Positions 3,291 through 27,974 of a stretch of 56,707 nucleotides of DNA are shown in pieces. Numbering within the stretch: the stretch's first letter is position 1; each line of letters starts with the position of its first letter. Position numbers and translations under genes: made by a program. The notes under the pieces were generated by a model. It was given only the letters and a program-made list of their open reading frames with translations. It had not been told where the DNA came from and made no database searches. Source of the stretch: Clostridiales bacterium (GTDB lineage Bacteria; Bacillota; Clostridia; Tissierellales; GPF-1); assembly GCA_013619125.1 (NCBI GenBank), contig JABXKS010000046.1, positions 1 through 56,707 of the forward strand, written 5' to 3'.

Positions 3291-3539
3291 AAAAAAACAC
3301 ACCTCACCTCAATTAAGAGGCGAGGTGTTATCTCGCGGTTCCACTCTAGTTCAGGGTTCGTTGACCCTCTCAGTTTGATACAGTCATATCATCTCTCGAT
3401 AACGGGAGAAGCCCGTACACACCTACTCATTTCGGCAGTCCGCTTAGAAGAGCACTTCAATCAAACATTCTTAAGAGGTCACAGCAACCCTCTCTCTCTG
3501 GGAAGAATTATCTCATTTACTTTCCTTCATCATTGCGTT
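3291..3539 (-). ncRNA. T-box leader of cysK, probable Cys (UGC) specificity
   Basis: The minus strand carries the conserved T-box core GAGTGGAACCGCG (plus coordinates 3334-3346). Before it are Stem I features: an AGTA loop-E-like motif, the CAGAGAGAG purine run and GAAG just ahead of a UGC triplet (3452-3454) that reads as a cysteine specifier. The terminator is CACCTCGCCTC/GAGGTGAGGTG (3300-3327) followed by a T-run. Uncharged tRNA-Cys would favour the antiterminator and allow cysK expression. The specifier is placed by analogy with the Asn T-box in this same window, where GAAG also precedes the codon. Confidence 0.9.
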
Positions 3540-3545
3540 TTTTGT

Positions 3546-4607: not shown

Positions 4608-5560
4608 TGGAACAATGGAATGATAAGCGTTACCATAATTTGAATTTTGAATTGCGTCAGCAATTTGGCAAAAAAATGGTGAAATTGAGTTTGGATGGTG
4701 GTTTTACCTGTCCAAATCGAGACGGCACCCTTTCTGAGAAAGGGTGCGTCTTTTGTAGTGAGCGGGGAAGCGGCGATTTTGCCGGAGAGGCGAATTCGCC
4801 TGTATCAACACAGATTAATGACCAGATTGAGTTATTGAGGGGAAAATGGCCAAACGTTGGCTACCTCGGCTATCTGCAGAATTTCACTAATACCTATGGC
4901 AGCATGGGGCGATTGCAGAATTTATATCGAGAAATCCTGTCAGATACTCGTATTGAGGGGTTGGTGATTGCCACCCGGGCAGATTGTCTGGAGGAGGAGG
5001 TAATTACATTATTGGAAACGTTAAGCCGAGAGACCTTTCTGTGGGTGGAATTGGGGATTCAGTCGATTCATGCGTCCACGCGTGATTGGATGAATCGCCA
5101 TGAGGATTTAGATCAGGCCATGGCAATGATTGACCGGCTTCAGTCCTGTGGAATTCGGGTGGTTATTCATCTGATTTTGGGCCTCCCTGGAGAGAGTCGG
5201 GAAGAGATGATCGAGAGTGTGAAAGTGGTTGGAAATCTTCACCCGTGGGGAATGAAACTTCATCTTCTTCATATCATGACAAAAACACCCCTTGCACAGT
5301 GGTATCGAGAGCATCCTTTTGATATGATGGAGAAAGAAACTTATATCGATTTATTGGTGGACTGCTTGGCTCAGCTACCGCCAGAAAGTACGATTCATCG
5401 ATTGACGGGGGATGCGCCTCGGGATCGGTTAATTGCTCCCAAATGGGCAGTTCGAAAACGATTGATCCTCAATGGGGTAGATCGGGAATTGAGGCAACGG
5501 AATTTATGGCAAGGAAAGAACTGGACGGGGAGCAAGCGAGTATGGAAATTCAATGGATAG
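4607..5560 (+). CDS. radical SAM protein, YhcC/TIGR01212-like
   Basis: Protein of 317 residues with a GTG start 6 nt after AGGAGA; the start overlaps the preceding stop by one base. The iron-sulfur cluster motif is a cysteine in FTCPNRDG followed by GCVFC (a CxxC pair), the spacing typical of the YhcC family rather than the usual CxxxCxxC. Other family features are the AGEANSPVSTQ segment, WVELGIQS and the HLILGLPGE strand. YhcC-type proteins have no established reaction. Its 3' end overlaps the sfsA start by 19 bp, which suggests translational coupling. Confidence 0.85.
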   Translation: MEQWNDKRYHNLNFELRQQFGKKMVKLSLDGGFTCPNRDGTLSEKGCVFCSERGSGDFAGEANSPVSTQINDQIELLRGKWPNVGYLGYLQNFTNTYGSMGRLQNLYREILSDTRIEGLVIATRADCLEEEVITLLETLSRETFLWVELGIQSIHASTRDWMNRHEDLDQAMAMIDRLQSCGIRVVIHLILGLPGESREEMIESVKVVGNLHPWGMKLHLLHIMTKTPLAQWYREHPFDMMEKETYIDLLVDCLAQLPPESTIHRLTGDAPRDRLIAPKWAVRKRLILNGVDRELRQRNLWQGKNWTGSKRVWKFNG

Positions 5561-14482: not shown

Positions 14483-14720
14483 GGAAAGCTGATGATAGGA
14501 AGAGTAGCTTTTGATCCTTGTGCAAAGCGAGCCAGAGACGGTGGAAGTCTGGTCATAAGGCAGAAGTGAAGAACATCCCGTAGGCGCTGTATTGAAACAT
14601 ATGGAGTAGATGCAGACGGCAACCGACCGTTATCGGATTGAGTGACGCGCAAAGACGCGCGTAACTAGGGTGGTACCGCGAATAGACCTTTCGTCCCTTT
14701 TTGGGATGAGAGGTTTTTTT
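14483..14720 (+). ncRNA. T-box leader of asnS, Asn (AAC) specificity
   Basis: Carries the T-box core AGGGTGGTACCGCG (14667-14680), a Stem I with AGAGTAG and GCCAGAGACGG elements, and GAAG followed by an AAC specifier codon (14572-14574), matching asparagine and the downstream gene. The terminator is ACCTTTCGTCCC/GGGATGAGAGGT (14686-14714) with a long T-run. Uncharged tRNA-Asn should switch on asnS and, by read-through, the alarmone synthetase gene behind it. Confidence 0.93.
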
Positions 14721-16266: not shown

Positions 16267-16316
16267 ATCCCAAAATTTGGGGTATTTAGTACTCGAATGG
16301 ATTGGAGGCGTGTAGC

Positions 16317-17102
16317 GTGATTCCAAATTGGAAAGAAATTTTAATTGTATACGAACAAGCCGTTGATGAGTTGAAATTGAAGTTCAAGCGCATTCGAAAA
16401 GAATTTGCCGCCATGGACGAATATTCGCCCATCGAATTTGTTACAGGTCGAGTCAAAGAGATCAACAGCATCATCAACAAAGCAAACTTGAGGGGAATTC
16501 CCATATCAGAAGTGGAAACGGGCATTGAAGATATTGCGGGTATTCGAATCATGTGTCAGTTTGAGGATGACATTCATCGCGTAGTGGATCTAATTAAGAG
16601 CCGTTATGATATGGAAGTGGTGGAAGAACGGGATTATATCACGAATCACAAAGAGAGTGGATACCGCAGTTACCATATGATTATTCGTTATCGTGTGAAT
16701 ACTGCTCATGGGGTAAAGCCGGTCTTGGCGGAAATTCAAATTCGGACCCTTGCCATGAATTTCTGGGCGACCATTGAGCATTCCTTGAATTATAAATTCG
16801 ATCAGCAGATTCCCGAGCATATTGGTGCGCGATTGCAGGAGGCTGCTGAAGCCGTTTACAACCTGGATCAACAGATGTCTCAGATTCGGGAAGAGATTAT
16901 GGACGCGCAGGAGTTATTCGCATCACGTGCGCACCTGGTTGAAGATTCTCTGAACATGCTTCAAAACCTGTATATGTCTGGAGATGTTGATGAAATCGAC
17001 GAATTGTATGATGAGTTTATGCTTCTTCAAAAGAAGGGAAACTTGAAGGATTTGGCGGAATTTCGACAGAAACTGGTTGTGACAACCAAAGAACGATATT
17101 AA
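16317..17102 (+). CDS. RelQ-type small alarmone synthetase (GTP pyrophosphokinase family)
   Basis: Protein of 261 residues from the GTG at 16317, placed 8 nt after GGAGG; the upstream in-frame TTG overlaps that SD and is unlikely. RelA/SpoT synthetase domain: IEDIAGIRIMCQFEDD, the substrate loop HKESGYRSYHM and the AEIQIRTLAMNFWATIEH block with the catalytic Glu/Gln. There is no HD hydrolase, TGS or ACT domain, so it should make (p)ppGpp only. A C-terminal acidic helical tail follows. It lies 50 bp after asnS with no T-rich terminator between, so it is probably cotranscribed under the Asn T-box. Confidence 0.9.
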   Translation: MIPNWKEILIVYEQAVDELKLKFKRIRKEFAAMDEYSPIEFVTGRVKEINSIINKANLRGIPISEVETGIEDIAGIRIMCQFEDDIHRVVDLIKSRYDMEVVEERDYITNHKESGYRSYHMIIRYRVNTAHGVKPVLAEIQIRTLAMNFWATIEHSLNYKFDQQIPEHIGARLQEAAEAVYNLDQQMSQIREEIMDAQELFASRAHLVEDSLNMLQNLYMSGDVDEIDELYDEFMLLQKKGNLKDLAEFRQKLVVTTKERY

Positions 17103-17143
17103 GAAAAGCTGGGTTGACTTTAGTCGACCCAGCTTATTTTTAT
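17101..17143. terminator. terminator between the RelQ-type gene and the convergent flavodoxin gene
   Basis: AAGCTGGGTTGAC and GTCGACCCAGCTT form a 13-bp stem around TTTA, with T-runs on the plus side and a TTTTCTT on the minus side. The stem overlaps the last codons of the minus-strand gene. Confidence 0.85.
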
Positions 17144-18181
17144 CTCATTGGCAAGATTCTTTGCGAATTCAGCGGCTTGAAACTCGATGTTCGGCCGTGC
17201 AAAAATCGCCTCCCTGTTGTTTGCGGTTGCAGTCAAGGAGAACCGTGGAGGCAGCCTGAAGGTCTTGTTGATAGTCAAGGCGCTGATCAATTGATGTTGC
17301 AGGCATTCGGAACCAGAATTGCCAGATACCACCAGTCCGAACAAACTCTTGTTGTAGAAATTGTGGGTTCGGAACAGGGCGGTCATCCGATTGATGGTTG
17401 CCGTCAGATTGGCGGATAAGGCGTCGTTGTAATTGGGGCAAGCCCAGAGGATGGCATCGGCTTCTAAGATGGCAGGATAGATCTCCTCGACCATCACGCC
17501 TCCATAGAAACAGCGCATCTGTTCGCCAAAGTGTTTGCAAGTGGTATAGGGACAGCCGATGCAATCGCGCACGGTGCCGTTTTCAATATGAATCTCCTGC
17601 ACCTTGACAGACTGCGGGAGATTTTTTTTGACCATTTCCCATAATTGCAAGGTGCTTGAGGTGGCTGCATTGCTTGCGTGCAGTACCAAAAGGGAAGGAC
17701 GACTCTTTTTTACGGGACTGTCGGCCAAGAGTCGAGCCACCAGATATTCACATTCGGCAAGGCAGACTTCCTGACGGGATTTTCGCTGGACAGTTTCTAA
17801 AACCTTCATGTTAATCAAATCTTTTGCAGCCTCGACAATGGGTCTTCCCATAAATCGGCAGCCCAATTCATTGGCCCGTAAAATCAAGTCGACAGCAAAC
17901 TCCCGGCTGTACCGTTCGGAGGAGCTGTGGATCAGAATGGCTGCTTCGCTTCCAGTGAAGGATTGTGCCGTTGGATCCAACTGCATGAAAAAGGTGGATA
18001 GTTCCGGGCAGAGGTTCCAAGTATTGACTTGAACGGCAAAGAGAATCCGTGCATTTTGCAAATCAGGCAAAGATTCTCCGGCGTGATAGACACCATCGGG
18101 ATGATGGGTCCATGCAGCGCTGAGCATGCGTTTTAATTGTTGCGAAGATTCACCGATTTGAATCACATAAAAGGGCTTCAA
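17120..18181 (-). CDS. flavodoxin-fold NADPH-dependent FMN reductase-like protein
   Basis: Protein of 353 residues, last gene of a three-gene minus-strand operon. The C-terminal half (about 163-340) is a flavodoxin/FMN reductase domain beginning SLLVLHASN, with CIGCPYTTC (Cys 207, 210, 215) after the first beta-alpha units and WACPNYNDALSANL at the FMN site. The CxxC pair resembles that of iron-sulfur flavoproteins, although the spacing is not the classic four-cysteine motif. The N-terminal half, with GRPIVEAAKDLI, looks like a second, degenerate flavodoxin-like domain. Its ATG overlaps the LDH-like gene's stop (ATGA), so the two are coupled. Substrate unknown. Confidence 0.7.
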   Translation of the reverse strand: MKPFYVIQIGESSQQLKRMLSAAWTHHPDGVYHAGESLPDLQNARILFAVQVNTWNLCPELSTFFMQLDPTAQSFTGSEAAILIHSSSERYSREFAVDLILRANELGCRFMGRPIVEAAKDLINMKVLETVQRKSRQEVCLAECEYLVARLLADSPVKKSRPSLLVLHASNAATSSTLQLWEMVKKNLPQSVKVQEIHIENGTVRDCIGCPYTTCKHFGEQMRCFYGGVMVEEIYPAILEADAILWACPNYNDALSANLTATINRMTALFRTHNFYNKSLFGLVVSGNSGSECLQHQLISALTINKTFRLPPRFSLTATANNREAIFARPNIEFQAAEFAKNLANEIKISWVD

Positions 18182-19425
18182 AGGATCGCCTCCAATCCTT
18201 GATGGGTTTCCTTGAGCCGTTTCATCAAGGAATCGGATAGGGGCAAACGTTCGAATTCAACGCCGTGATCGAGGAGTTGATTGGCTGCACCAAAGTAAAC
18301 GCCTCCAAGGAAATTAGCGCTCAGATGCCAGTCGCCCCGAATCATAGAAAGAATAGACAAGGCGCCGGATGAGAGTGCTGGGGCGATATAGGGCTTAAAG
18401 CCAGTTTCTCGAACCAGGTGATTAGCATTTAAGGTAGCTTCTGTTAGCAAGAGGCTTTTTGATTCCTCGTACTCATCAATGGAATTGGCGACAACTAACC
18501 CTTTTCCATGAGGACCATAGGCACGTCCGTGGATCAAGAAGTCAGGATCTTGAATGGTCGACTCAGCAAGGTAAGCGGCTCTGGCATACATGACGCCCAG
18601 GCCGAAACCATGGATCTGTTCGGGGCGAAGCCCTTGGAAATCCAGCCCATCCTGATTCGCATTGCTGTCTAGATAAGCGGACAGGCAAAGCGGATCAACG
18701 GGATCCGAAACCACGCAAAACTCTCCCTGGAAATCTTTCAGCCTGGCCATTTGTGCATATTCTTTTAAGATCTTTCGATTGCCTTCCAATTGCACCATGC
18801 GAACATCGCCCGAGGTTTGAGACAGGGGTGGAATGCCCTTTGAGGCGCAAAAAACAAAATAATCGCCATCAAAGACTTCTTCTTTTTCAATGGCCCGTAC
18901 CCGTGGTGCTTGTTTGGTTTGTCCGAAAGAGAGAATTTGATTGGTCTCCAGGACGAATCGGCGTTGCGTTTCAGGACTTCGATCATAGATGCCGATCTCC
19001 TCGATGCAATCACCGCCAGCCAGGCATAGACCGATTAAAAGGGTGCTGCCCACATCACCGAGGGCGACCAGATTCAAATGAATGCCAGTGCGCTTTCGAG
19101 GAAGGGTTGATACAAGGCGTTCCCATTTTGGCCATGCAAGGTTGATGGCCCGGATGGGAATACCTTCGGGAACAAAATCGATTAGCGAGGAGCCAGGAGA
19201 CGACGCTGTCTTTAAGCGATCCAAGGTGTCATGGTCGAGGAGGGTTGCCTTCTGACTAAGTGGAAATTGCACGGCGTTTTTTCCCGGTTCTCCCGAGAAG
19301 AGCACGATAGCCTCTTTGGTATGTTTTGGAAACCGGGGAACCAGCGCCTCTTTCCATTCTGGGATGGGTTGATCGGCAATACAGCCGATGTTTTTATCCG
19401 CTAGATGATAGAAATAGGGTCTCAT
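18178..19425 (-). CDS. divergent lactate/malate dehydrogenase-fold protein
   Basis: Protein of 415 residues. After about 110 unrecognised residues comes an LDH/MDH-like core. The Rossmann start is LNLVALGDVGSTLLIG (118-132) with an acidic residue ending strand 2 (IYDRS, Asp148). VVSDPVDPLC (238-247) parallels the VxNPVD motif, GFGLGVMYARAAY (273-285) parallels the GxTxLDxxR helix, and YGPHGKG (303-309) parallels the GEHG loop with the catalytic His. The C-terminal part covers the substrate domain. It is longer than true LDH (about 315) and too divergent to assign a substrate. Coupled by ATGA overlaps to both neighbours. Confidence 0.65.
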   Translation of the reverse strand: MRPYFYHLADKNIGCIADQPIPEWKEALVPRFPKHTKEAIVLFSGEPGKNAVQFPLSQKATLLDHDTLDRLKTASSPGSSLIDFVPEGIPIRAINLAWPKWERLVSTLPRKRTGIHLNLVALGDVGSTLLIGLCLAGGDCIEEIGIYDRSPETQRRFVLETNQILSFGQTKQAPRVRAIEKEEVFDGDYFVFCASKGIPPLSQTSGDVRMVQLEGNRKILKEYAQMARLKDFQGEFCVVSDPVDPLCLSAYLDSNANQDGLDFQGLRPEQIHGFGLGVMYARAAYLAESTIQDPDFLIHGRAYGPHGKGLVVANSIDEYEESKSLLLTEATLNANHLVRETGFKPYIAPALSSGALSILSMIRGDWHLSANFLGGVYFGAANQLLDHGVEFERLPLSDSLMKRLKETHQGLEAIL

Positions 19426-22400
19426 TTTTCCTCCTGAGTAAAGAGCGACTGAATTCGCTTAAGATGTGCTTGATCGTATTCGATATATTCGGATACTTTT
19501 AAGGATGAGTCATACTCCAATAAGTCGCTGCGATCCGGGAAGCGAGGCGAAGTAAAGATTTCACCCAGGTTCGTGATGCAAAGCGCGCGATCGTTGATTT
19601 GCTGATATTCGCGTTCCAAGGTGCGGAAAATTTGATAGGTGTTTTTCAAGACCGTTTCCGACAGCTTGTAGATCGCCGATATGGGTGCGTTTTTGATATA
19701 GCTCGGCGAGGCATAGGGCAAAATAAAATTCACCGATGGAATCATGTTGGATTTATAATCGGTTATTCGCTCAACAGCATCTCCTCCGATAAAGGGATAG
19801 AGGATGCTTTCGTTGAACCAAACATTCAGATTGGGAACAAAATATGCGGATTCCACATCCAAATCTTCCAACTCCATCAGTTCCTGCCCTTGACTGGAAA
19901 GGATGCCCACGATGGTTTTTTCCACACGAACATTGTATTGGCTGAACTTTGGTCGAATCGCTTGAATCCGATAGCCTTTATGGAGAATATCATCGATGAG
20001 GAGAACGGGCCGCTGGAACGATTTCATCATGCGGATCTGTTCATCCAAACTGAGATAGTATGGGGCTTGGTGGATATAGAATGAATCTGCATCGCCTGTA
20101 TACGTCTTCTCTGTATGGAGGGTTTTCGTCGCCGTATTGGGCACGATCCTTCCCTTTAGAATCGAACCATATGGGACGCATAAATTGGGGCCCAGGGTGC
20201 GTACGGGTCCTTGAACGGGATCGACGTGATTGTTGCGACAAATGATCTCCATCAGTTTTTCATTCATAATCTTTCGATCAAAAGTTAAGAGCAATTGTCC
20301 AGGATACAGGGCGACCATGGCTTCTCTGAGTGCATCGCGGCTTTTGTGAATGGCGCGAATAACCTTTGGATTGTTGCGGAACGGTTCTTTTAAAAGCGCC
20401 TTCATATTTAAGTAGAGGGTGCTTGGGTGCGTCATGGAAACCAGGAAGATCGGCGATTCTGACTCCTTTGATTCCTCGGGCACCGAGATAAACCCCTGAA
20501 GTTTTAGGATCTTATAGTTTCGTTCATCGATTGCCGGATGGTGAAGGGGTTCATGGTACACGGCCGATGTGTAATCCTTTTGTAATGCGAAGCCCAGTGT
20601 TTCCGTCAAAAGAATCTGTCCCAAGTGACGATAGGGAGATCCTTGATGGGTGTAAATCCCGGCGATCAAGGCAATACGACCGATTGCTTTTTGACGAATG
20701 AAATCAGCGGCGGTATGATCATGGAATTCCCTGAAGATCATGGAGTTTCTCAACCAGCGGAAGGGAACAACCCCGATAATGACATTGTCTTTTGTTTCTC
20801 TTGCAATCAGAAGTCTTGCGCTGTCCATATCAAAAAATGATTTAAGATCGATGGGGAAATCACCAAATTGACTGCGGAGTTCAGAGACAATCTCATAGCG
20901 GAAATCTTCAATAATTTCAAAATTCAAAGTGCGCGTGGATACCGGAGATTTCATTTGTGGTTCCTGGCGGTAAAATCCGCGCGCCATAATATATTTTTGC
21001 GCAAGGGGATCAATCAACATGGAGACATCACGGTTTTGATCGATGTATTTGCGAATTTGCGTGGAGGAGATATCTTCATATTCCTCTGGCAGGCAGAGGC
21101 GCACTGCAGGTTCTTTCATGCGATCCAAAAACGGTTTCAGGGGATCTGGTTCCACCTTGTCGCAATTTCTCTCAAAGATGACATGAGGGAAATGATAGAT
21201 GGAGAATTCGGCTGTCGTGGTATAAGCGGACGCGTGAAGGACAACATCGCTACCGACGACAATGGAAATGAAATCTTCCCTAAAGCATTCTTGCAATTCT
21301 TTCAGATCCGTCGAATTTGCGATATTGACAGACAGAGAAGATGGGAAAAGATAGATATTTAATTCATCGGCGATAGACATGTCGATGATGTTTCTTCGGA
21401 TCATATTGGGCTGGGTACGTTTCGACCAAGAAAACTCGTCTACAGCCAAGAAGACCTCATATCCCATATTTCGAATATTCTGTGCAATCTTCTTATGCGA
21501 GATAGAGAAGGGATCGAAGGTACCTGGGAAGAAGGCTTTCTTTTGATTAGAAAAAACGGGAACTTTTCGGTTGGTGAATTCATAATCAGCAATAAATCGA
21601 TAGATGTGGTTCAAGGAAACAGAATCATTTAAGCGAAGCAAATCTGTTCGTCGGCCTGTTGCGGCCAGAACCAGCATCTTCTTTGCGACAATGGACAGCA
21701 GGTGTTGCTTTTCGATCATATTTAATTTATTTGAGCCAAAGACGTCCTTACCTAAAACCAGGAAGGCTTCTCGCTTTACTTCTTGATCAAAGTTAACGAA
21801 GCTATTTAAGAGAATGCTCACCATGGTTACCAAACGGCGTTTCAACACCTCGTCGTTCTCTTGGAATCTGGGGCCGTATTGCGAGTAATTTTGGATGCAA
21901 ACCCCGATTGTTTTTAGCATCAAGACGGCAATCTGCTGATTGGAAACCTTGGTTTTATCAACGAAATCATCAATAATCTCATCCAATTCCCTTGGTTGCA
22001 AGTGGAGCATAACCCGGCCTAAATAGCGGGGAATAAAATTGGTGAATTGAAAGTTCTCCATCTCCAAAGCGCGCATGAGTTCGATGGTCACATCATTTTT
22101 TTGCTCCTTGCTCAAATACGGAAAGATTTCGACTAAGGCGATCCCTGCATGGTTTCTGACATTTTCCACTTCACTTACCTTCAGCAGGTTGCAAAAATGA
22201 ATGGCTGTATGAATCTTGTCGATGTTTGGGAATCCATCGATTAGAAAATCAGCCAGCAAATGGACGTGAACCTTTTTGATTACCCATGGGGTCGCTGTTT
22301 TTAGATTTTGCAAATAGAGATCGGAAAGATCCTCGCCATCAACGCGGCAGATCTCATAATAGTGTTCAATGACAGGTTTCGGCACACGGATGCGCCCAGC

Positions 22401-24293
22401 CAATTTATAGCGAAGGTAGTTCTCGGCGGGGTCCTCGGACGCGTCGAGCTTGCGTTTTAAAATTCGCCCAAGTTCATCGATAAACCAGCCTTGATTGGGA
22501 ACCTTGTTGACCAGATTCCAGATTCGTTCCAAGGCGGTGATGCGAATGATGCGTTCGGGATCAGTCAGCGCGCCCAGCAAAAGTCGCAGGGGCTGAATCA
22601 TCACGGACTCATCAAAATTTTTCATGGGGATCCGCTTGATGATCTGCATCAAGTAGAACTTGGTTCGGAAGATGGCGAAATTCCCTTTGGTGTAGTTGGA
22701 CAGCACGATCTTGCGATAGGCGTCTAATTGACCCTTTTTCGTATTTTGAAACAGGGTCGCCAGCATCACGCGCAAATTGTGAGTGATCCAGACTTGATGC
22801 TGCTCGATCAATTGCGTATCCGGATGCAGGATTTTTTGGATATAGCTGTTCAACAAGTCCTCGCTGCTGTAAAGGGTTTCCGGCAGGTTCGCGTCTTTTG
22901 GAATTTCTTTTCGGTACTCTTCGTCGAAATTGGCAATGAGCATACCGATGATTCCGGCAGCCTGGCGGCGAATGTCACCGTCTTTGTTGGTCAATAGATC
23001 GTATAAAAACTGAATGGTGATCAGTTTTTGATCCTGAGTGAGGTAGGTGGTATACTCCTCCAATACCGATAGATATCCGCGAAGTTTTTGCGGATCACTC
23101 TCGCTTCTCGCTTGCTCCAGAATTCCGCTCAAAGAGCCAACGGATCGGAAGTTATGCATCAAATCGATATTGTGTCGAATCGCCATAAACTTTATGTTTT
23201 CAATGACCTCTTGACGATGCATCAGGGCGTAATGGCGAATGGGAGCAGGCTCGTACGGCACATGTTCCAGATTAAGATTGACATTCTGATCGTACAAAAA
23301 GGATTCAAAGTCTTTTAGCTTTGCATAAACCTTTCTGTATCGGTTCGCCTTTACTTCGTCGACGTTGTCGAGCTTGTTTAATATGATATCGAAGGCTTCG
23401 TCCAGGGAGAAAATATGCATATGGCGTTCCCCGTTGGGAAGGATTCGGTTTTTTACGCGAAAATCACAATAGATCAAGAGCAAAGATTCCAGAGGCAAGT
23501 TTTCCAACTCAAGATCCCATGTGGAATGATTGGTTGCGATATGACCGATATAGAGAAGATCATGACGCTTGGTCCATTCATCGGTATAGAAGTAATGAAA
23601 ATAGGGCACGCGCTGCAGGCATTCGCCTGTGCAGCCGAATTTGCCAATATCGTGGGAGGCCGCCGCACCGGAAACAACTCCCAAGTCTACGGGGATTCCC
23701 AATCGAAAACATTGGCGTCCAATATGAACCGCCAAAGAATGCACGCCGGAAACGTGGTGGATGTTGTTGTGATTGGTTAATTCAAAATGGAGTTTCATCA
23801 ATTCGTACACCATGTCATGGTCGAAGGCGGTTACAAATTTACGATACTCGTGCCGATTGATGATCATTTCATCGTCAACGGGCAAAAAGTCCAGGTGATA
23901 ATCGAATGGGGCTTGTTCGGTTTCCTTCTCGACTTCGCTGAAAAAACGGAAGAAGTGAACGAATAATTCCGCGGCTAGATCAAATTGAGGAGAGAACTCG
24001 ATTTCGATGCTGGATGGATAGGCGCGTTTGAGGATGACTTGATAACAATAGGCAAGCCAGTCGGCGGGCGGCTGACGCTTGGAAAGATCGTATAGAATAG
24101 GCTCGCAAAGCGAGAGAACGGAGCGCCCAGAATAGTTGTGCTGGGTGCAGATGCGTTCGAAATGTTGCTTGAAATCATGTGCTTGAATTGATAATTGAAT
24201 ATAAGCAGCCACGTCTTGATTTTCTATGAGCCACTCGAGGTGATCGAAAGATTGAACAAATTTTTGGTATTGTGCCAAGGTAGTTTGATTCAT
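19422..24293 (-). CDS. 1623-residue multidomain protein: HD, HEAT-like, NadD-like, GNAT-like, PRTase-like
   Basis: First gene of the operon, RBS GAGGAGG. Regions in order: a helical N-terminus (1-160); an HD phosphohydrolase domain with a full metal set (His185, HD 214-215 in SHDIGK, His251/His256, Asp277); a long helical stretch resembling HEAT/ARM repeats (about 360-900); a nucleotidyltransferase with FFPGTFDPFSISH (921-933, HxGH degenerate to SISH) and ISSTQIR (1075-1081), as in NadD-type enzymes; a region resembling a GNAT acetyltransferase (about 1125-1290, GRIALIAGIYTH); and a phosphoribosyltransferase-like region with VLLIDDILHKG (1430-1440, the PRPP loop). No signal peptide or membrane segment. 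The combination suggests a nucleotide-processing machine, but I know of no characterised protein like it. Confidence 0.7.
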   Translation of the reverse strand: MNQTTLAQYQKFVQSFDHLEWLIENQDVAAYIQLSIQAHDFKQHFERICTQHNYSGRSVLSLCEPILYDLSKRQPPADWLAYCYQVILKRAYPSSIEIEFSPQFDLAAELFVHFFRFFSEVEKETEQAPFDYHLDFLPVDDEMIINRHEYRKFVTAFDHDMVYELMKLHFELTNHNNIHHVSGVHSLAVHIGRQCFRLGIPVDLGVVSGAAASHDIGKFGCTGECLQRVPYFHYFYTDEWTKRHDLLYIGHIATNHSTWDLELENLPLESLLLIYCDFRVKNRILPNGERHMHIFSLDEAFDIILNKLDNVDEVKANRYRKVYAKLKDFESFLYDQNVNLNLEHVPYEPAPIRHYALMHRQEVIENIKFMAIRHNIDLMHNFRSVGSLSGILEQARSESDPQKLRGYLSVLEEYTTYLTQDQKLITIQFLYDLLTNKDGDIRRQAAGIIGMLIANFDEEYRKEIPKDANLPETLYSSEDLLNSYIQKILHPDTQLIEQHQVWITHNLRVMLATLFQNTKKGQLDAYRKIVLSNYTKGNFAIFRTKFYLMQIIKRIPMKNFDESVMIQPLRLLLGALTDPERIIRITALERIWNLVNKVPNQGWFIDELGRILKRKLDASEDPAENYLRYKLAGRIRVPKPVIEHYYEICRVDGEDLSDLYLQNLKTATPWVIKKVHVHLLADFLIDGFPNIDKIHTAIHFCNLLKVSEVENVRNHAGIALVEIFPYLSKEQKNDVTIELMRALEMENFQFTNFIPRYLGRVMLHLQPRELDEIIDDFVDKTKVSNQQIAVLMLKTIGVCIQNYSQYGPRFQENDEVLKRRLVTMVSILLNSFVNFDQEVKREAFLVLGKDVFGSNKLNMIEKQHLLSIVAKKMLVLAATGRRTDLLRLNDSVSLNHIYRFIADYEFTNRKVPVFSNQKKAFFPGTFDPFSISHKKIAQNIRNMGYEVFLAVDEFSWSKRTQPNMIRRNIIDMSIADELNIYLFPSSLSVNIANSTDLKELQECFREDFISIVVGSDVVLHASAYTTTAEFSIYHFPHVIFERNCDKVEPDPLKPFLDRMKEPAVRLCLPEEYEDISSTQIRKYIDQNRDVSMLIDPLAQKYIMARGFYRQEPQMKSPVSTRTLNFEIIEDFRYEIVSELRSQFGDFPIDLKSFFDMDSARLLIARETKDNVIIGVVPFRWLRNSMIFREFHDHTAADFIRQKAIGRIALIAGIYTHQGSPYRHLGQILLTETLGFALQKDYTSAVYHEPLHHPAIDERNYKILKLQGFISVPEESKESESPIFLVSMTHPSTLYLNMKALLKEPFRNNPKVIRAIHKSRDALREAMVALYPGQLLLTFDRKIMNEKLMEIICRNNHVDPVQGPVRTLGPNLCVPYGSILKGRIVPNTATKTLHTEKTYTGDADSFYIHQAPYYLSLDEQIRMMKSFQRPVLLIDDILHKGYRIQAIRPKFSQYNVRVEKTIVGILSSQGQELMELEDLDVESAYFVPNLNVWFNESILYPFIGGDAVERITDYKSNMIPSVNFILPYASPSYIKNAPISAIYKLSETVLKNTYQIFRTLEREYQQINDRALCITNLGEIFTSPRFPDRSDLLEYDSSLKVSEYIEYDQAHLKRIQSLFTQEEK

Positions 24294-24406
24294 CGGTAGC
24301 CTCCTCGATAAGATTTCACTATTATTATATAATAATTAAGGTGATTATACAGGATCTTTCCAGTTTTTTTGCAGTTTCTTACACAACAGACGAAATAGAC
24401 GAACTA

Positions 24407-27782: not shown

Positions 27783-27968
27783 AATCCAATAGTTCTGGGG
27801 TGTTCGTATCTTTCTTGATAATTCAACCGACAGAATGTATTCGGGAGAACGGGGTTCTTTGTTTGGGCGCATGCCTCTTTTTGAGGACACGGCTGATCAT
27901 CGACAGTTCACCCACCTGCGAAGACCGCGGGCGTGAATTATGAGCGAGGTACGGCACTTTGGATTGAG
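27783..27968 (+). ncRNA. ssrS: 6S RNA (RNA polymerase-binding regulator)
   Basis: A 186-nt gene with no coding potential. The 5' end carries CTGGGGTGTTCG and the 3' end ACGGCACTTTGG, matching the conserved ends of 6S RNA (CTGAGATGTTCG and GCGGCATCTCGG in E. coli). AATCCAA (5') pairs with TTGGATT (3'), and GTGT-CGTATC pairs with GAGGTACGGCAC apart from one bulge. The middle then leaves a large internal loop where RNA polymerase would bind as to an open promoter. The call rests on end motifs and pairing, not on a covariance search. Confidence 0.75.
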
Positions 27969-27974
27969 ACTGAT

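Follow-up and report, generated by a model that had tools for sequence, protein, structure and literature searches.

A co-inherited three-gene system of the Clostridia built on a 1623-residue protein with nucleotidyltransferase-fold and HD domains

On the minus strand of contig JABXKS010000046.1 of a Clostridiales bacterium (order Tissierellales, class Clostridia; assembly GCA_013619125.1), three consecutive, head-to-tail open reading frames (ORFs), here named A, B and C, encode a 1623-residue multi-domain protein and two partners with the folds of redox enzymes, which raises the question of whether the three form one system and what such a system would make. The window analyzed is this contig (C46 of a 3.4-Mb genome) at its full length of 56,707 nucleotides. 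An earlier note made from the letters of this DNA had proposed an assembly line that makes, edits or repairs a nucleotide or dinucleotide cofactor and couples it to redox chemistry, and had known of no characterized system with this combination. In this work the three-gene system was found to be real, conserved together and strongly constrained. It is apparently undescribed: searches of the open-access PubMed Central (PMC) literature found no paper naming or describing it, in agreement with the earlier note. Judged by its fold and conserved sites, protein A likely makes or edits a nucleotide-type molecule. We propose tentatively, by analogy and with somewhat less than even confidence, that it is a tethered nucleotidyltransferase (NT) and HD hydrolase making or proofreading a specialized nucleotide or dinucleotide with two redox-type partners. 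The genes and their segments are the following:

19422..24293, minus strand: gene A, 1623-amino-acid (aa) multi-domain protein (ORF; Shine-Dalgarno sequence GAGGAGG at 24300-24306)
23859..24293, minus strand: A residues 1-145, N-terminal helical region (predicted helices)
23259..23858, minus strand: A residues 146-345, HD phosphohydrolase-type domain (Pfam in members, invariant ligands, hhalign)
21582..23198, minus strand: A residues 366-904, HEAT/ARM superhelix (Pfam, AlphaFold2, VIA-align)
20946..21551, minus strand: A residues 915-1116, NMNAT/NadD-fold NT domain (Pfam, confident model, VIA-align)
20394..20945, minus strand: A residues 1117-1300, GNAT-like by predicted topology alone (strand/helix order)
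19749..20393, minus strand: A residues 1301-1515, phosphoribosyltransferase (PRTase)-like domain (Pfam in members, conserved loop)
19425..19748, minus strand: A residues 1516-1623, mostly helical C-terminal region (predicted structure)
18178..19425, minus strand: gene B, 415 aa, lactate/malate dehydrogenase (LDH/MDH)-fold protein
17120..18181, minus strand: gene C, 353 aa, TTG start, NADPH-dependent FMN reductase family domain
17510..17563, minus strand: C residues 207-224, four cysteines spaced C207-x2-C210-x4-C215-x8-C224 (all four present in 38/38)

Do the three genes always occur together, as the earlier note had asked? The genomes searched were 31 of the order (own genome included), 391 of the class and 398 of the phylum; the class scans used a loose first pass in which at most two A and four B candidates were scored per genome, and absences in them are not proof. 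Sixty-three class genomes gave some match to A, 31 of which were excluded from the count as short matches only (nearly all in the NT stretch), so that A is present in 32/391; among the 46 with a match to B, 15 LDH-like ones below 25 bits were excluded. B (>200 bits) was then found in 31 of the 32 A-positive and in 0 of the remaining 359 class genomes, i.e. it is confined to A-positive genomes, and the sole A-positive genome without it (G204) is 84% complete and has a partial A. C was found in 7/7 A-positive and 0/3 A-negative genomes (ten tested). At 40 of 48 A loci, the window included, the three genes are collinear neighbours. Three of the other eight loci (L030, L033, L040) are contig ends, two (L035, L036) have B and C 5-6 kb downstream of A, and three (L043, L053, L054) are second copies of A with no B or C nearby. 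All three genes are also present at 5/6 loci from other classes, the exception being L073; of the 32 class genomes with A, seven are not among the fetched loci. Within the order A is held by 21/31 genomes (in two of them split over contig ends), and two further ones match A in the NT stretch only. Strong matches (>600 bits) occur in 8/398 phylum genomes, six of them outside the class, and homologues of 32-50% identity are found in other families and beyond the class. A 92%-identical copy lies in a Eubacteriales bacterium record (L013), and Acetoanaerobium noterae (NZ_CP154629.1) also carries A. The latter record, of 2.63 Mb and with four annotated features, is listed in PLSDB as plasmid pTPELB2; it looks chromosomal in size.

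The ratio of nonsynonymous to synonymous substitution rates (dN/dS) of A is 0.041 against the close relative G002. Against G001, for which dS is saturating, it is about 0.02, and the ratios for B and C are 0.04-0.07 against close relatives. Measured against G002, the catalytic-type segments of A give 0.024-0.052, and the N-terminal region, at 0.094, is the least constrained part of the protein; the C-terminal region gives 0.028. The arrangement of the genes is more variable. The ORFs were confirmed as the three minus-strand genes originally described, and the A/B junction in the window is an ATGA overlap as claimed, but the B/C junction, also described as ATGA, is TTGA (gene C starts with TTG in the window and with GTG in close relatives). 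The 4-nt B/C overlap is kept in 16/20 relative loci (two of the 20 being on the same contig). The 4-nt A/B overlap is kept in just 4/20, the remainder having gaps of 1-130 nt, and therefore the suggestion that the proteins are made in fixed proportion does not generalize.

What would protein A do? The only above-cut-off Pfam match of the window protein is CTP_transf_like, a family found in 41/43 A members at E<=1. VIA-align placed the NT model closest to Mycobacterium tuberculosis NadD (4rpi_B; Z 20.8, 2.4 Å over 186 residues), with CoaD at Z 15.7. The NCBIfam matches (NadD 1.1e-8 vs CoaD 5.2e-3) and hhalign against the enzymes of the same genome (NadD 92%, CoaD 85%) have the same order. The motifs in the window protein are S930-x-x-H933, G1014-x-D1016 and, as already noticed, ISSTQIR at residues 1075-1081. 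In the alignment of 44 A members, from which the short pieces L032 and L033 and the near-duplicates L013 and L018 were left out, H933 is present in 44/44 and position 930 is Ser in 36 and Thr in 8. The residues (S/T)930, H933, G1014, D1016, S1076, S1077 and R1081 are all kept in 47/47 copies (41 from the alignment and six distant ones) that are not orphans of the kind described below. The NMNAT/(T/H)xGH superfamily permits Thr in place of the first His, and the predicted NadD-like fold together with (S/T)xxH and SSxxxR in the 47 non-orphan copies places the domain in this superfamily. SISH, which had been called degenerate, is so in comparison with the HxGH of NadD, but not clearly so within the superfamily, where (S/T)xxH has a counterpart in the TYGH of the organism's own CoaD (PGSFDP..TYGH; its NadD reads GGTFNP..HMGH). 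A canonical NadD above the family cut-off is encoded in 31/31 genomes of the order, own genome included, where it adjoins an ordinary YqeK gene (L111). Protein A was thus ruled out as the NadD of the cell, and it is therefore an additional enzyme.

The second putative active site is in the HD domain, in which the ligands H180, H214-D215, H233, H256 and D277 are invariant in 44/44 members and also kept in 6/6 distant members for the positions printed. From the metal site first listed (His185, H214-D215 and Asp277), the HD pair and D277 are upheld, but His185 is conserved in 34/44 only and the metal-binding His is H180. Pfam HD matches 31/43 A members at E<=1 (best 6.3e-7), and the H...HD...D ligands in a helical domain assign A to the HD superfamily on member-wide Pfam results, not on the window sequence alone. 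To which HD subgroup it belongs was addressed with the 200-aa window segment, which gave no match to TIGR00488 (YqeK) at E<=1 and whose best NCBIfam match was NF045665, at a weak E of 0.011. By hhalign, three small HDIG proteins scored 95-97%, a MocA-type nucleoside triphosphate (NTP) transferase-HD protein (L071) 85%, and the own-genome YqeK 3%, under the best of 40 controls (6%); the HDIG comparison proteins (L069-L072) had been pre-selected as matches to the profile of A, and this comparison is not blind. The sequence comparisons suggest that the HD domain of A is nearer to the HDIG domains of the MocA-HD (DVU_1551) kind than to YqeK, an identity rejected as unsupported. The frequent NadD-YqeK linkage to which the earlier note appealed is hence useful as an analogy only, the more so as an ordinary NadD-YqeK pair is located elsewhere in the genome.

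The two domains are separated by a long helical region. Pfam HEAT matches 32/43 A members at E<=1, the AlphaFold2 model of this part is a superhelix with a mean predicted local distance difference test (pLDDT) of 89.4, and its VIA-align matches (Z 11.6-15.1) are almost all HEAT/ARM-type proteins. The predicted structure, tandem helix pairs forming a superhelix, is that of HEAT repeats; the superhelix itself is well founded, and the scaffold role once given to it is plausible. The fold-search matches of A were taken up by NadD/CoaD-type and HEAT/ARM-type proteins, and these results concern the NT and HEAT parts. Weak single-match Pfam names (e.g. Lipid_DES, PAP_assoc) were taken as chance.

The PRTase-like domain may provide a third ligand-binding site. 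Its loop at residues 1430-1443 reads VLLIDDILHKGYRI and contains the IDDILHKG of the phosphoribosyl pyrophosphate (PRPP) loop VLLIDDILHKG originally reported; further conserved residues are P1385-N-T..K1390..H1393.E1395-K1396. The usual type I PRPP loop consists of an acidic pair followed by T/S-G-x-T. In the A family the loop is mostly (V/I)DD-x-L-x-K-G-Y-R, in which the acidic pair is kept (40/44; D1434 in 44/44) and Lys and Arg stand at the usual Thr positions (K1439 in 40/44, R1442 in 44/44). Pfam Pribosyltran matches 19/43 A members at E<=1 (best 0.0016), and hhalign against the PRTases of the same genome gave at most 11%, 7/12 exceeding the highest of 40 controls (2%); the loop is present as claimed, and its assignment to a PRTase is tentative. 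Distant members vary further: L075 is without the first Asp. In L077 (4195-9015), among the most divergent A members at 33% identity, the loop reads SDEVINRGRT and is nearer to the usual PRPP loop than that of the rest of the family. The stretch described earlier as acetyltransferase-like fared worse. Its predicted order of strands and helices, b-a-a-b-b-(aa)-b-a-b-a-b, fits GNAT, but a Pfam acetyltransferase match was obtained in 1/43 members (E 0.23), hhalign against 20 GNATs of the genome showed no signal, a single one exceeding the best control, and that slightly (1.2 vs 0.8%), and the GNAT acetyl-CoA-binding loop, R/Q-x-x-G-x-G/A, is not conserved. The segment is also the least conserved of five aligned (mean column identity 52% vs 62-71%).

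The folds proposed for both partners were borne out. Ldh_1_N is found in 17/17 B members at E<=1 (best 3.3e-8), window B itself being below the Pfam cut-off, and the solved structures matched by the B profile include 4q3n (MGS-M5) at 3.7e-7 and, as first named L-LDH, one at 8.9e-7. Like the bacterial L-lactate and malate dehydrogenases, B has an NAD-type Rossmann motif (G123, V125 and G126 invariant in 39/39) and, in LDH numbering, aligned counterparts of Arg109, Arg171 and His195 in R209, R282 and H306, also invariant in 39/39. It differs from them in about 110 extra, unassigned N-terminal residues, which are absent from some distant members (318-328 aa), and in Met279, invariant in 39/39 at the place of Asp168. 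B is accordingly no L-LDH or MDH by the Asp168-His195 pair, the His alone being kept, and it scores 26 bits against LDH cut-offs of 303-339 bits. Protein C is a member of the FMN_red family (window C 9.1e-20, 71.2 bits vs a Pfam cut-off of 24; 16/16 C members at E<=1, best 8.5e-23), consistent with the flavodoxin-fold reductase first suggested. It shares the FMN_red domain with the NADPH-dependent FMN reductases, and its four cysteines are a possible Fe-S site, presumably resembling that of the iron-sulfur flavoproteins; unlike both groups it has an extra, unassigned 160-aa N-terminal half preceding the FMN_red domain, and the spacing C-x2-C-x4-C-x8-C.

A hint at how the partners depend on A comes from the copies of A that lack them:

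L043 6827-11722; L053 5197-10113; L054 5378-10093 (no strand): orphan A copies, i.e. second copies without adjacent B or C, of one family

The three form one clade (node support 1.0). In 3/3 the NT motif is damaged, with EDASPAQIRS, EEILSCETKD and KDVKLLELPT instead of EDISSTQIRx, and in 3/3 the HD ligands and the PRTase-like loop are intact. Because these copies without adjacent B and C have lost the NT site and kept the other two, they suggest that it is for the NT reaction that B and C are required and that the HD and PRTase-like parts serve an independent purpose. The orphans L053 and L054 adjoin a gene of the APH/fructosamine-kinase type.

Taken together, A may be viewed as a single-chain multi-enzyme of nucleotide-cofactor metabolism. 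With its fold and intact motifs, the NMNAT-fold domain would join a phosphate-bearing small molecule to a nucleoside monophosphate derived from an NTP. The HD domain, which has a complete metal site, would cleave phosphate or pyrophosphate bonds in the same class of molecule and could edit or trim it as a tethered hydrolase; the PRTase-like domain might bind or make a substrate containing ribose-5-phosphate; and the HEAT superhelix would keep the sites together. B, with its NAD-binding dehydrogenase fold, and C, as an FMN and possibly Fe-S reductase, would take the NT product as substrate or work together with it, as their strict co-occurrence with A and the orphan copies suggest. The co-existence with a canonical NadD makes a specialized nucleotide or dinucleotide, other than ordinary NAD, the probable product. 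This reading is preferred because two known NT-HD pairings resemble A, by analogy and not by membership. One is the mycoplasma NadD-YqeK fusion, described in PMC9426524 as a nicotinic acid mononucleotide adenylyltransferase with a proofreading HD hydrolase. It has, like A, an NMNAT-fold NT and an HD phosphohydrolase on one chain; unlike it, A has an NT below the NadD cut-off with (S/T)xxH, an HD domain that was not YqeK-like in the tests run, two partner genes, and further parts of the HEAT, GNAT-like and PRTase-like kinds. The other is the DVU_1551-family NTP transferase (NF045665, L071), which also combines NT with HD and whose HD subgroup is the nearest to that of A among those compared, but whose NT is of the MobA/MocA type and whose chain has no HEAT, PRTase or redox partners. 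The assembly line for a (di)nucleotide cofactor envisaged by the earlier note comes close to this reading and is consistent with the data, its HD, HEAT and NT domains being retained, its acetyltransferase finding no sequence support and its PRTase being weakly supported.

Several results weigh against the proposed synthesis or proofreading of a specialized nucleotide. The NT domain is no NadD by TIGR00482 (35.4-40.6 bits vs a cut-off of 112.45, and no HxGH). In a single-sequence scan, window A alone has no Pfam HD or Pribosyltran match even at E<=10; of the three regions for which profile matches had been foreseen, it shows the NT only, and the HD and, less clearly, the PRTase family emerge from the members. 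The PRTase-like loop without the usual Thr residues, the low hhalign values of that domain and the want of sequence support for a GNAT are further points of this kind, and B, without the Asp168 of LDH, may perhaps be no redox enzyme. As to the orphans, they represent a single lineage and not independent events, a further A accompanied by B and C is encoded in the same genomes (on broken contigs in G225), and L073, outside their clade, has no adjacent B or C and yet an intact NT site. The surroundings of A give no help: its gene neighbours are variable and largely of the housekeeping type, none indicating a substrate, and an Rfam search over the window and 52 loci (some of overlapping places) found no riboswitch conserved upstream of A.

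Other explanations were weighed as well. A more specific form of the cofactor idea, which we regard as rather unlikely, is an undescribed redox cofactor, a NAD-like dinucleotide with a non-nicotinamide moiety: the PRTase-like domain would make the mononucleotide, the NMNAT-fold domain the dinucleotide, HD would edit it, and its modification or use would fall to B and C. On this view the orphan copies, having no working NT, would serve salvage or degradation. Damage control of NAD(P), in which HD destroys wrong or damaged NAD-type dinucleotides, the PRTase-like and NT domains restore them and the nicotinamide ring is returned to its proper redox state by B and C, would suit the closeness of the NT to NadD (Z 20.8; hhalign 92% vs 85% for CoaD), the invariant NAD-type Rossmann motif of B and the proofreading documented for the NadD-YqeK fusion (PMC9426524). 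We nevertheless consider it unlikely, as A is found in 32/391 class genomes only, which is odd for general repair, the genome already encodes an ordinary NadD-YqeK pair, and the HD domain was not of the YqeK type in the tests run.

The same NT comparisons bear on whether the acceptor contains nicotinamide at all. An enzyme resembling CoaD or glycerol-phosphate cytidylyltransferase would turn the operon into a maker of an activated lipid, sugar or pantetheine intermediate instead of a dinucleotide cofactor, and both the (S/T)xxH and PGTFDP motifs, which resemble the organism's CoaD more than its NadD, and the Pfam assignment to nothing beyond the general CTP_transf_like family fit this idea; since NadD is favoured over CoaD in structure (Z 20.8 vs 15.7) and in NCBIfam (1.1e-8 vs 5.2e-3), it too seems improbable. 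A could finally be a large sensor or regulator whose domains bind ATP, PRPP and NAD-type ligands without turnover, with the HEAT part signalling to B, C or others. The altered PRPP-type loop (K1439, R1442), the unsupported GNAT part and the damaged NT motifs of the orphans agree with such a role, but a complete and invariant HD metal site, an NT site intact in the non-orphans and dN/dS of 0.024-0.052 over the catalytic-type segments (vs G002) make it very unlikely.

Links to other processes were also sought. Glycine reductase (PF07355) is encoded in 28/32 A-positive and 24/359 other genomes of the class (G381 of the 28 matching only weakly); within the order, however, it is encoded in 17/21 A-positive and 9/10 A-negative genomes (G022 of the nine weak), and the own genus (G000-G002) is without it. 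The association vanishes within the order and kinship and lifestyle can therefore explain it, so that a glycine-reductase (Stickland) link was rejected as functional evidence. A link to sporulation was rejected as well: the own genome has no spoIVA, which is present in 14/21 A-positive vs 6/10 A-negative relatives. No PADLOC match at E<=0.1 that would indicate anti-phage defence, and no PHROGs or phage-record match that would indicate phage origin, was obtained for A, B or C.

Some individual loci deserve mention. L035 (1867-2704) and L036 (2467-2585), which belong to one family, have upstream of A an FMN riboswitch that is absent from L039 and L041 of that family; in L035 it precedes an energy-coupling factor (ECF) transporter gene, probably for riboflavin, directly upstream of A. 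In L068 a cobalamin riboswitch (4903-5131, plus strand) is upstream of A on the opposite strand and probably serves the divergent gene. Beyond gene C in the window, a relQ-type small (p)ppGpp synthetase gene (16302-17102) is convergent with it, as is again seen in several genomes of the order, and between the two a pattern scan gave one further feature by consensus match alone:

17106..17135, no strand: terminator-like stem of 13 pairs

Elsewhere in the window there are T-box leaders at 14483-14701 (plus strand), followed by a gene which we take from its sequence to be asparaginyl-tRNA-synthetase-like, and at 3313-3542 (minus strand), and a 6S RNA match at 27789-27969 (64.1 bits).

This locus thus appears, from its sequence, to combine, on a single scaffold, sites that join nucleotides with sites that cut them, together with two redox-type partners, co-inherited in a large anaerobic class. 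A extends the pairing of NT and HD hydrolase known from NadD-YqeK and MocA-HD, which suggests that the editing of nucleotide cofactors is common. Should A prove to make or edit a cofactor, it would be an undescribed one.

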